Of a stretch of 64,000 nt of DNA, positions 55,169-58,602 are shown one piece after another. Made by a program: the position numbers and the translations under genes. The notes under the pieces were generated by a model, which ran no database searches, was not told the DNA's origin, and saw only the letters and a list, made by a program, of their open reading frames with translations. Numbering within the stretch: position 1 is the first letter of the stretch; each line of letters starts with the position of its first letter. Where the stretch lies: the NCBI GenBank assembly GCA_029821755.1, contig JALGSV010000007.1, forward strand, positions 62,001 to 126,000. The letters are read 5' to 3'. The DNA is from Candidatus Zipacnadum vermilionense (GTDB taxonomy: Bacteria; Armatimonadota; Zipacnadia; Zipacnadales; Zipacnadaceae).

Positions 55169-55505
55169 TACAACCTATCAGTTCAGGCTACGACGGGGAG
55201 GAGTAAGCGGAGATCCAGGCTGCGCAAGCGCTTTGCGATTGCGCGTAGCGAGCCGGCGGCAAGGTGAAAGTGCCGGCGCCTCGGACCCGCCGAACGTCGC
55301 CCCCGAGCCGCGGGACCGAACAGAGGTTTCCTGTGGCACCGGCGTCTCGCCGGTGCTCCCCTCCCACTAGGCCCAGCCGGGCACGCCCGTTACAGCGTCA
55401 GAGCGTTCCTGCACGGCTCTTGGAGCTGCGCAGGAGAACTCGGGTGGTACCGCGAGAGCGATCTACAAGCCCTCTCGTCCCGTGATGGACGAGGGGGCTT
55501 TCTGT
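55169..55505 (+). ncRNA. T-box riboswitch leader with transcription terminator
   Basis: The T-box sequence GGGTGGTACCGCG is exact at 55442-55454. It is followed by a 13-bp terminator (AGCCCTCTCGTCC with GGACGAGGGGGCT, 55468-55499) and TTTCTG. The antiterminator would use CGCGAGAG against CTCTCG. A stem-I-like region with GGAGTA lies at 55196-55280. I could not fix the specifier codon. Downstream ilvD suggests a branched-chain amino acid. A family A palindrome (55336-55356) lies between stem I and the antiterminator. Confidence 0.85.
55336..55356. repeat. family A palindrome inside the T-box leader
   Basis: Intact CACCGGCGTCTCGCCGGTG with flanking pair, positioned in the linker of the riboswitch. 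Confidence 0.9.
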
Positions 55506-55543
55506 CAGGTGGGGGCACGACACCATGGGAGGGCGTGTTACAC

Positions 55544-56716
55544 ATGGATATTGATGCATTCAAGGACACTCCTTCTGGCCGGATCATTAAGGTTGGCCGC
55601 GGGGAGGCAGCATACCACGCCTTCGTTCCCAACCCACTACCACCGGATCTTGAGCCTAACAAGGGTCTGTGGGCGGCGTTGTCGGCGGCGGACCTTGCGG
55701 TTGGACGGCTCGACGGACTGGGACGCGACCTGCCGAACCCCCACCTCCTGATTCGCCCTCTGATCAGGCGAGAGGCAGTGTTGTCATCCCGGATAGAAGG
55801 AACCCAAGCTGACCTCTCGGATATATTTGCTTTCGAGGCTGGGCAGCGCACTCTGTTTCCGGACAAAGCTCCAGCGCCCGAGGCCGATGTCCGTGAGGTA
55901 TACAATTACGTTCGTGCGCTCGAACACGGACTCAAACTACGAGAGTCACTTCCAGTGTCCTTGCGCTTCATTCGAGAGATCCACAGCATTCTCGTTCACG
56001 GCGTCCGAGGTGAGCATCTCACACCGGGGGAGTTCCGGACTTCTCCCAATTGGATTGGTCCTGAGAACTGCACTCTCAACGAGGCCACCTTTGTTCCGCC
56101 ACCGCCAGACGAGATGGACGAGGTTCTGGATGCCTTTGAGAAGTATGTCCATGCTGAAAACGAGTATCCCTCGCTTATTCGTCTGGCGTTCATACACTAT
56201 CAGTTCGAGGCAATTCATCCATTCCTAGATGGAAATGGCAGAATCGGCAGGCTGCTGCTGGCATTGCTGCTCGTCCATTGGGAGATCTTGTCGCAACCGC
56301 TGCTCTATTTGTCTGAGTTCTTCGAAAGGAACCGAGATCTATACTGTGATCTCCTTATGGGTGTGAGCCAACGCGGTGCGTGGCACGATTGGGTCGAGTT
56401 CTTCCTGCGTGCCGTCGCAGAGCAAGCGACTGTGACGGCCGACAAGGCCCGCGCCCTCCTGGAACTGCAGAAGCGATGGAGAACTCTTCTCACGAAGCCG
56501 AGGGGATCATCTCTGCTCCCGCGACTTGCCGAGAGTCTCCTTGGGATGCCCGTTGTGACCATTCCTCAGGTTCAGGAAACGCTCGGTGTCACATACCGCA
56601 GTGCCCAACTCAATGTTGAGAAGCTGGCAGACGCCGGACTACTCCAAGAAATCGCAGGTGCCCATCCGAGAGCCTTCTTCGCGCCAGAAGTAATACGAAT
56701 ACTCGAATACACGTAG
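55544..56716 (+). CDS. Fic family protein (class II, predicted AMPylase) with C-terminal winged helix
   Basis: 390 residues. An N-terminal inhibitory helix carries SSRIEG, fitting (S/T)xxxE(G/N). The Fic motif HPFLDGNGRIGR is near residue 225 with all conserved residues, so nucleotide transfer from ATP is predicted. The C-terminal 70 residues (VTIPQVQETLGVTYRSAQLNVEKLADAGLL) form a winged-helix domain. GGGAGGG lies about 10 nt before the ATG at 55544. GC is clearly lower than in the neighbours. It lies between the T-box terminator and ilvD, an unusual T-box target, suggesting horizontal insertion. Confidence 0.93.
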   Translation: MDIDAFKDTPSGRIIKVGRGEAAYHAFVPNPLPPDLEPNKGLWAALSAADLAVGRLDGLGRDLPNPHLLIRPLIRREAVLSSRIEGTQADLSDIFAFEAGQRTLFPDKAPAPEADVREVYNYVRALEHGLKLRESLPVSLRFIREIHSILVHGVRGEHLTPGEFRTSPNWIGPENCTLNEATFVPPPPDEMDEVLDAFEKYVHAENEYPSLIRLAFIHYQFEAIHPFLDGNGRIGRLLLALLLVHWEILSQPLLYLSEFFERNRDLYCDLLMGVSQRGAWHDWVEFFLRAVAEQATVTADKARALLELQKRWRTLLTKPRGSSLLPRLAESLLGMPVVTIPQVQETLGVTYRSAQLNVEKLADAGLLQEIAGAHPRAFFAPEVIRILEYT

Positions 56717-56725
56717 CTTGTCGAA

Positions 56726-56877
56726 TTATACTTTGGTGGCCACAAGTATAACTACACTGCGCCGGGTTGTACTTTGGTATACAACTCCCACGTCATGCAG
56801 CGAGTAGCCACAATCGAAGTTATACTTATCCGCCTTCAGGTATAACTAGAACTAGCTTGGTTGTACTCCGGTACAAC
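56726..56877. promoter_or_regulatory. array of four dyads with half-site (G)TTRTAC, a duplicated two-dyad unit
   Basis: Dyads: TTATACTT-N10-AAGTATAA (56726-56751), GTTGTA-N8-TACAAC (56766-56785), GTTATAC-N14-GTATAAC (56819-56846) and GTTGTAC-TCCG-GTACAAC (56860-56877). Dyads 1-2 and 3-4 are each about 37 nt apart and the pairs are offset by about 94 nt, so the array looks like a tandem duplication. It fills the 233-nt gap between fic and ilvD. Operators are the simplest reading. Confidence 0.7.
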
Positions 56878-56949
56878 TCACTGACGAAGTAGCCGACCGC
56901 TGAAATGATCCTGCGAAAATGTGCGAAGTGCAACAAGGAGTGACCCTTC

Positions 56950-58602
56950 ATGCGTTCCGACCGTGCCAAACTTGGCCTCACTCAGGCCCCCTCCCGGGCC
57001 TTGCTCCATGCGTGCGGGATAACCCGCGAGCAGCTCGGCAAGCCCTTCATCGGCATTGCCAACGCCTTCTCCGACCTGGTCCCCGGCCACATCGGCATGC
57101 AGCGCCTGGCCCGCGCTGTCGAGTTGGGCATCGCCGCCGGCGGCGGGGTGCCTTTCCAGTTCGGCACTATGGCCATCTGCGACGGCATCGCCATGGGCCA
57201 CCGGGGCATGTTCTACTCCCTGCCCTCCCGCGAGCTGATCGCCGATACCGTCGAGTCCATGGCCGAGGCCTACGCTCTCGACGGCCTGGTGCTGCTCACT
57301 GACTGCGATAAGATCACCCCCGGCATGATCATGGCCGCCGGGCGTCTCGACCTGCCGGTAATCGTGGTCACCGCCGGGCCCATGTACTCCGGCCGCCTGC
57401 AAGGCCGTCGCCTCGACCTGGTGCATGACACCTTCGAGGCCGTCGGCCGCGTGCGCGCCGGGCAGATGAGCGAGGAAGACCTGTGCGCCCTGGAGTTGGA
57501 GGCCTGCCCCGGCGAGGGCTCCTGCCAGGGGCTTTACACCGCCAACACCATGGCCTGCGTTACCGAGGCGATGGGCCTGAGCCTGATCGGCTGCGGCACC
57601 GCCCTGGCCGGCTCTGCCAAGAAGCAGCGCCTCGCCTACAGCTCCGGCGAGCGCATCTGCGACCTGGTTCGCCAAGACGTAACCGCCCGCCAGATCCTCA
57701 CCCCCGCGGCCGTGCGCAACGGCATCCGCATCGACATGGCCCTGGGCGGTTCCACCAACTCCTGCCTGCATATACCCGCCATCGCCCACGAGGCCGGCGT
57801 CGACCTGCCCCTGCAGGCCTTCGACGAGATCAGCCAGGCCACGCCCCAGATCTCCTTCCTGCGCCCGGCGGGCGAGCACATGATGGAGGACCTGGAGTGG
57901 GCCGGCGGCGTGCCCGGCGTGCTGCACAACTTACGCGACTTGATCGAGCCCAACCCCACGGTCAGCGGCGTGGAGATCCGCGAGATCGCCCGCGAGGCCC
58001 AGGTCAGCGACCCGGAGGTCATCCGCTCTCTCGACAACGCCTATCGCGCGGAGGGCGGCATCGCCGTTCTGTTCGGCACGCTCTGCCCAGACGGCGCCGT
58101 CATCAAGCAGTCGGCGGTCTCCGCCAAGATGCGCCGGTTCCGCGGCCAGGCCCTTTGCTTCGACTCCGAAGAGGAGGCCATGCAGGCCATCCTGGCCGAC
58201 CAGATCCCGGACGGCTCCTGGGCGATCGTGCGCTACGAGGGCCCGCGTGGCGGCCCCGGCATGCGCGAGATGCTCAACCCCACCGCGGCCCTCACCGGTA
58301 TGGGCAAGGAAGACAGCGTAGCGCTGATTACCGACGGTCGCTTCAGCGGCGGCACCCGCGGCCCTTGCGTCGGCCACGTTTCCCCGGAGGCGGCCGCCGG
58401 CGGGCCGATTGCGCTGGTCCAGGATGGTGACGAGATCGAGATAGACCTCGACGCCCGCCGCCTGGACCTGCTGGTCAGCGAGGAGGAGCTAGCCGCCCGC
58501 GCCGCCCAGTGGCAGGCTCCCGCGCCCAAGATCACCAGGGGCTGGCTTGCCCGCTACGCCCAGCAAGTCTCCAGCGCCGCCCAGGGGGCGGTGATGGGGT
58601 AG
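56950..58602 (+). CDS. ilvD: dihydroxy-acid dehydratase
   Basis: 550 residues, Fe-S enzyme of isoleucine/valine synthesis. Cluster and Mg ligands are visible: [22 protein letters not shown] and [16 protein letters not shown]. The C-terminal domain has [22 protein letters not shown], which carries the catalytic-type Ser. AAGGAG lies 10 nt before the ATG. It is the first biosynthetic gene after the T-box leader; fic and the dyad array separate them. Confidence 0.97.

Follow-up and report, generated by a model that had tools for sequence, protein, structure and literature searches.

A repeat array behind a SoFic-like fic gene is a probable operator of the adjacent Fic protein and belongs to a clade with operators downstream of the gene

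We analyzed a stretch of 64,000 nucleotides from Candidatus Zipacnadum vermilionense (hereafter the window) and found that the array of inverted repeats between the genes fic and ilvD (56724–56878) is very probably an operator bound by the Fic protein encoded next to it. The preliminary description of this DNA had proposed operators either for the winged-helix end of the Fic protein or for an unlinked regulator. The former proposal is strongly supported by the conserved geometry of the array and by half-site letters that covary with the recognition helix of the neighboring Fic protein, and the same covariation makes the latter unlikely.

The array consists of two diverged tandem copies of one unit, each formed by a 26-bp dyad (TTATAC..GTATAA) and a 16–18-bp dyad (TTGTAC..GTACAA) (Table 1). 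All four dyads noticed earlier, with half-sites TTATAC or TTGTAC, were recovered in this interval, and their arrangement in two pairs about 94 nt apart and a composition richer in AT than the surroundings also held: the left half-sites start at 56726 and 56767 in the first unit and at 56820 and 56861 in the second one, that is, 41 nt apart inside each unit and with an offset of 94 nt between the units, and the GC content is 0.45 in the array, 0.56 in fic and 0.70 in ilvD. The global alignment of the two units has a score of 66, compared to a mean of 20 (sd 6.8) for shuffled sequences, none of 2000 shuffles scoring as high. In the 233-nt gap between fic and ilvD, three non-overlapping dyads have perfect arms of 7 bp or more; dinucleotide shuffles contain 0.15 such dyads on average and two at most, and three were reached in none of 5000 shuffles.

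Table 1. Features of the fic–ilvD region (positions are those of the window).
Feature	Position	Strand	Details
T-box leader (RF00230)	55181..55485	+	70.4 bits, below the 93-bit gathering score; E 7e-14
fic, class II Fic/AMPylase (predicted), SoFic-like	55535..56716	+	motifs, Pfam, AF2 model, fold comparison
Codons of the predicted recognition helix VTYRSAQLNVEKL, residues 352–364	56588..56626	+	contains the covarying Tyr354 and Arg355
Putative operator unit 1, dyad A1	56724..56753 (core 56726–56751)	.	half-sites AATTATACTT / AGTTATACTT on opposite strands; dyad TTATACTTTGGTGGCCACAAGTATAA at 56726–56751, 8-bp perfect arms, 10-nt loop
Putative operator unit 1, dyad B1	56765..56786 (about 56766–56785)	.	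GGTTGTACTT .. TATACAACT, right half shifted 2 nt; dyad TTGTACTTTGGTATACAA from 56767, TTGTAC..ATACAA, imperfect, 2 nt longer
Putative operator unit 2, dyad A2	56818..56847	.	half-sites AGTTATACTT / AGTTATACCT; 8-bp arms, 14-nt loop; core TTATACTTATCCGCCTTCAGGTATAA at 56820–56845
Putative operator unit 2, dyad B2	56859..56878	.	half-sites GGTTGTACTC / AGTTGTACCG; dyad GTTGTACTCCGGTACAAC at 56860–56877, 7-bp arms, 4-nt loop
ilvD, dihydroxy-acid dehydratase, host gene 3' of the insertion	56950..58602	+	

The protein encoded by fic carries the active-site motif HPFLDGNGRIGR from residue 228, which agrees with HPFx[D/E]GN[G/K]R, and the inhibitory motif SSRIEG at residues 84–89, which agrees with the N-terminal [S/T]xxxE[G/N]; in Pfam it matches Fic and Fic_N. 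By its motifs it is a class II Fic protein, and transfer of AMP to a protein target is predicted. The AF2 model, built with 29 sequences (mean pLDDT 92), has a C-terminal winged helix comprising helices 326–336, 342–349 and 353–365 and a wing (model numbering; plus one for the 393-aa frame), and places residues 354–355 where the recognition helix begins. The fold is closest to SoFic (Foldseek TM about 0.8) and to a structure of a Mycobacterium marinum Fic protein. The PADLOC model of SoFic gives 380 bits, and the NCBIfam SoFic equivalog NF046030 gives 171 bits versus a curated cut-off of 550; we call the protein SoFic-like because PADLOC names it SoFic but the NCBIfam cut-off is missed by far.

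The same dyads were then sought near other fic genes, in 145 distinct fic loci of relatives from public genomes and plasmids, and their geometry is conserved next to related fic genes. In many loci an equivalent dyad pair directly follows the stop codon but has other letters, both arms being altered together; half-sites seen at this place are TTATAC, TGATAC, TTAAAC, TGAAAG, TTGCAC, TTCCAG and others. In a geometry scan, dyads were picked by the 20-nt spacing of their arms alone, with no further sites presupposed, and the strongest peaks for a second site, +41 on the same strand and +51 inverted, appeared in each of the downstream and upstream sets taken by itself. The family operator is a group of half-sites at 0, 20 (inverted), 41 and 51 (inverted), in which the letters change and the geometry recurs. 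The score for all four half-sites was reached downstream of fic in 33 loci and upstream in 23, and in one of 122 gene-interior controls. One of the downstream calls (L129), a GC-rich repeat, is probably false, and in one locus (L038) the array is present on both sides of fic. About a dozen members of the clade that includes the window have no clear full array; in some of them the contig stops short or dyad A alone is intact (L041, L045, L053).

Two other candidates for the content of the gap were considered. A hidden small antitoxin seems unlikely: leaving aside the genes on either side and the frames overlapping them, the ORFs within the gap or reaching across it are short (20–57 aa) and chance-like, and the spacing of the array is conserved as DNA. 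The dyads could also act as RNA hairpins at the 3' end of the fic mRNA, where they would serve as terminators or processing sites; in favor of this, they stand close behind the stop codon and their two arms change together like the arms of a stem. This is highly improbable and was rejected: elements with the same 0/20/41/51 spacing precede the start codon in other parts of the family, the dyads are weak AT-rich stems without T-runs, no intrinsic terminator was called in the gap, and the letters covary with a DNA-recognition helix.

This covariation was studied in 36 loci with clear operators. Residue 355 corresponds to base 6 of the half-site (Arg with T in 11/11 cases, Pro with A in 12/13, Asn or His with C in 5/5) and residue 354 to base 4 (His with G in 4/4, Tyr or Phe with T in 25/26). 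The Fisher p-values for the residue–base pairings are 1e-5, 3e-6 and 2e-4, calculated on rows that are related by descent; among phylogenetically independent pairs on supported branches, 4/4, 4/4 and 2/2 agree and none disagrees, numbers too small to be significant alone. A blind scan of all well-filled protein columns against the seven half-site positions (2366 pairs) ranked residue 355 with base 6 first by z (z 11.7; mutual information 1.17 bits, the highest among the top pairs), and residue 354 with base 4 fifth (0.82 bits), the three pairs between them being low-information rare variants. The same pairings were observed in both placements of the operator: Tyr-Pro occurs with TTAAAC upstream of fic in L127, L134 and L135 and downstream of it in L051. 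The combinations Tyr-Arg/TTATAC, Tyr-Pro/TTAAAC, His-Arg/TGATAC and His-Pro/TGAAAG look like a simple two-residue code. As the letters covary with the helix encoded next to them, direct contact between protein and DNA is expected; a regulator encoded elsewhere would leave no such mark.

The dyads might nevertheless be sites of an unlinked regulator or members of a mobile-repeat family (REP/MITE-like or integron attC-like), as the locus is an insertion of foreign composition and the repeats are duplicated. Apart from the tracking of the neighboring Fic helix by the letters, two observations render this barely credible. By pattern search the 26-bp form TTRTAC-N14-GTAYAA occurs in only two places of the 4.39-Mb assembly, both of them in the array, and attC-like cores (GTTRRRY/RYYYAAC) were not found in the right order; repeats of the attC and REP/MITE kinds were rejected on these grounds.

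Several individual loci deserve mention. One deltaproteobacterial genome (G291) has three related fic genes (L034, L035, L036), and behind each of them stands a separate array, two reading TTATAC and one TTGCAAT, in agreement with the respective recognition helices. In two Thermus plasmids (L103, L104) fic is flanked by genes for a helicase and a DUF1156 methylase and is preceded by TGATAC half-sites, which fit the His-type recognition helix but are spaced differently. In distant fic relatives, mostly from Bacteroidota (L065–L080), the gene is preceded by repeats of the TTTCGACAT type, which are probably an operator of this kind written in other letters. By inspection, dyad arrays also precede SoFic-type genes on Pantoea and Agrobacterium plasmids.

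The position of the operator relative to the gene was compared with a tree of the Fic core, from which the winged helix was left out. The downstream operators are found in one clade of 42 rows that includes the window (SH-aLRT 99): 29 rows are downstream, one is upstream and twelve have no call, and the single upstream row forms, with its neighbors, a sub-branch of ambiguous state. The upstream operators fall elsewhere in the tree. This distribution implies that the operator has switched sides essentially once. The direction of the switch has to be inferred, because the tree has no outgroup root; since upstream operators are distributed across the remainder of the sampled family, a shift from before to behind the gene seems more likely than the opposite. 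Where the operator is upstream, its first half-site mostly lies 50–110 nt ahead of the start codon. The distance from fic to a co-directional neighbor on its 5' side has a median of 7 nt for downstream operators versus 177 nt for upstream ones (p 0.003, with simple ORF calls), so many downstream loci, in which fic closely follows such a neighbor, could hardly accommodate a separate fic promoter.

An array behind fic is at the same time an array before the next gene, and could be the operator or promoter of the latter, with Fic controlling ilvD in the window and restriction-modification genes elsewhere in the style of a controller protein. The next gene, called by a simple ORF rule, is indeed co-directional in most loci, in several loci it is a restriction-modification gene (HsdR, HsdM, N6_N4 methylases, ResIII), and in the window the array directly precedes ilvD. 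Nevertheless, we regard this explanation as rather unlikely: the genes behind the array are unrelated across loci (mutS, uvrA, lepA-like genes, ilvD, aminotransferases, a radical-SAM gene with an RlmN domain), in several loci they are convergent (hslU-like in L042, transposase-like in L086 and L124, and a terC-like gene further off in L048; hslU, terC and the transposase of L124 were named by eye from the sequence), and a scan of the fic–ilvD gap for sigma-70-type sites found no sigma-70-like promoter. Because the downstream genes are unrelated between loci and in several of them convergent, the array appears to belong to fic, not to its neighbor, and ilvD would not be a general target; an operator for one particular downstream gene was rejected for the same reason. 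In the window, where the array does separate T-box and ilvD, it may still control ilvD independently of the T-box, as the preliminary description suggested.

As to the surroundings of individual loci, fic with its array directly precedes repair or translation genes in several genomes: mutS twice (L047, L064), lepA twice (L005, L006) and uvrA (L040). In L036 and L037 fic is followed by genes that by eye resemble tyrosine integrases, which suggests genomic islands.

In the window and in genome G001, fic and the array sit between a T-box leader and ilvD. In genome G002, from the same genus, the T-box is followed by ilvD after about 50 nt without fic between them, and a T-box upstream of ilvD was also found in nine other genomes of the family that were scanned. 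As G002 shows the empty site, fic and the array are, on this comparison, an insertion between T-box and ilvD that is common to two species of the genus. By the same comparison, the T-box is the ancestral regulator of ilvD, originally directly before it and now parted from it by fic. The fic gene of the window is horizontally acquired; together with the operator it would have entered between T-box and ilvD, after which the operator would have been doubled. The G001 copy has the first A+B unit and a decayed second unit (half-sites +202 and +211 after the stop codon), and the doubling may therefore predate the split of the two species.

The T-box scores lower in the two fic-bearing genomes (55181–55485 in the window and 1243–1580 in L033; 69–70 bits) than in relatives lacking fic at this place (93–125 bits), and may be decaying or merely divergent. 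In two members of the family (L172, L173) another short gene, four-helix-bundle-like by eye, is located between T-box and ilvD; the spot may thus take up genes repeatedly.

How the array would act can be outlined as follows. The half-sites at 0/20/41/51 of each unit lie on one face of the DNA, as their spacings are nearly whole helical turns. Each dyad would be bound by Fic dimers via the C-terminal winged helices, and the two dyads of one unit would be occupied side by side. In family members with an upstream operator, autorepression is expected, as in the Fic-HTH protein CccR. In the clade of the window, the likeliest action would be that bound Fic halts RNA polymerase at the 3' end of fic, acting on read-through or on antisense transcription into fic; this roadblock or silencing step, taken alone, is possible but doubtful. 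The array would also tether the Fic enzyme at its own locus, where DNA binding may in addition switch the activity of the enzyme, as proposed for CbFic2. In the window, Fic occupancy should lower T-box-driven read-through into ilvD: unless there is an unseen promoter in the gap, transcription from the T-box must cross fic and eight half-sites, and Fic could therefore dampen ilvD.

The array could also be mainly an allosteric switch, with DNA at its own locus keeping Fic an inactive or deAMPylating dimer. CbFic2 has been proposed to become a deAMPylating dimer upon DNA binding (PMC10628234), the clade is of class II with an intact inhibitory motif, and a position behind the gene needs no promoter; still, many copies of the protein cannot be titrated by one locus, and the operator's position before the gene in other family members is better explained by autorepression, making a mainly allosteric role improbable. 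We tentatively propose, as a possibility short of an even chance, a broader scenario in which a horizontally moving clade of AMPylases shifted its operator behind the gene. The DNA-bound enzyme would close its own 3' end (by a roadblock, antisense silencing or a DNA-held off-state), and such genes could lodge in host operons such as T-box–ilvD while keeping themselves in check.

DNA-binding tails are common among Fic proteins, and some of the proteins so equipped defend against phages. HTH-tailed Fic proteins were already known, as was autorepression in one case, that of CccR, which is also the only such protein with a specific DNA target that we found in the literature searched. As far as this literature shows, the predicted family-wide operator of four half-sites, the putative code linking residues to bases and the clade whose operator apparently lies behind the gene are new. 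The code predicts the target of many family members, the clade shows an operator on the unexpected side of the gene, and both the code and the action at the 3' end can be directly tested by simple exchanges of DNA and residues.

Among the known systems, the T-box leader (RF00230) is present upstream in the window and the dyads are not part of it. The controller protein of the Kpn2I restriction-modification system is reported to block elongation on the gene that encodes it (PMC6237814); it is unrelated to Fic, and a roadblock in the window would be an analogy to it. CbFic2 of Coxiella burnetii is, like the Fic protein of the window, a Fic protein with a C-terminal HTH, which binds DNA and dimerizes on it, and a deAMPylating switch has been proposed (PMC10628234); the DNA used there was random, with no specific operator known, and the sequence is remote from that of the window. 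SoFic (Shewanella SO_4266; the anti-phage Sofic of E. coli, PMC12249575) shares the domain plan and the fold with the Fic protein of the window but is only 27–28% identical to it, far under the NCBIfam SoFic cut-off. According to PMC10628234, SoFic had yet to be shown to bind DNA, and E. coli Sofic has a 47-aa antitoxin encoded downstream (PMC12249575). The closest functional parallel, CccR, a Fic-HTH protein of Yersinia pseudotuberculosis, represses its own promoter via AGATAATCAT-N26-ATGATAATCT, as demonstrated by footprinting, EMSA, ITC and a reporter (PMC9755527). Its operator lies upstream and has two 10-bp boxes 26 bp apart, whereas that of the window has half-sites at 0/20/41/51, is doubled and follows the stop codon, as in the rest of its clade, instead of occupying the promoter of the gene; the half-site letters differ as well. 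Common to both are a class II Fic protein with a C-terminal winged helix/HTH and inverted repeats at its own gene, which in the window are matched to the protein by geometry and covariation and are predicted to be bound by it.
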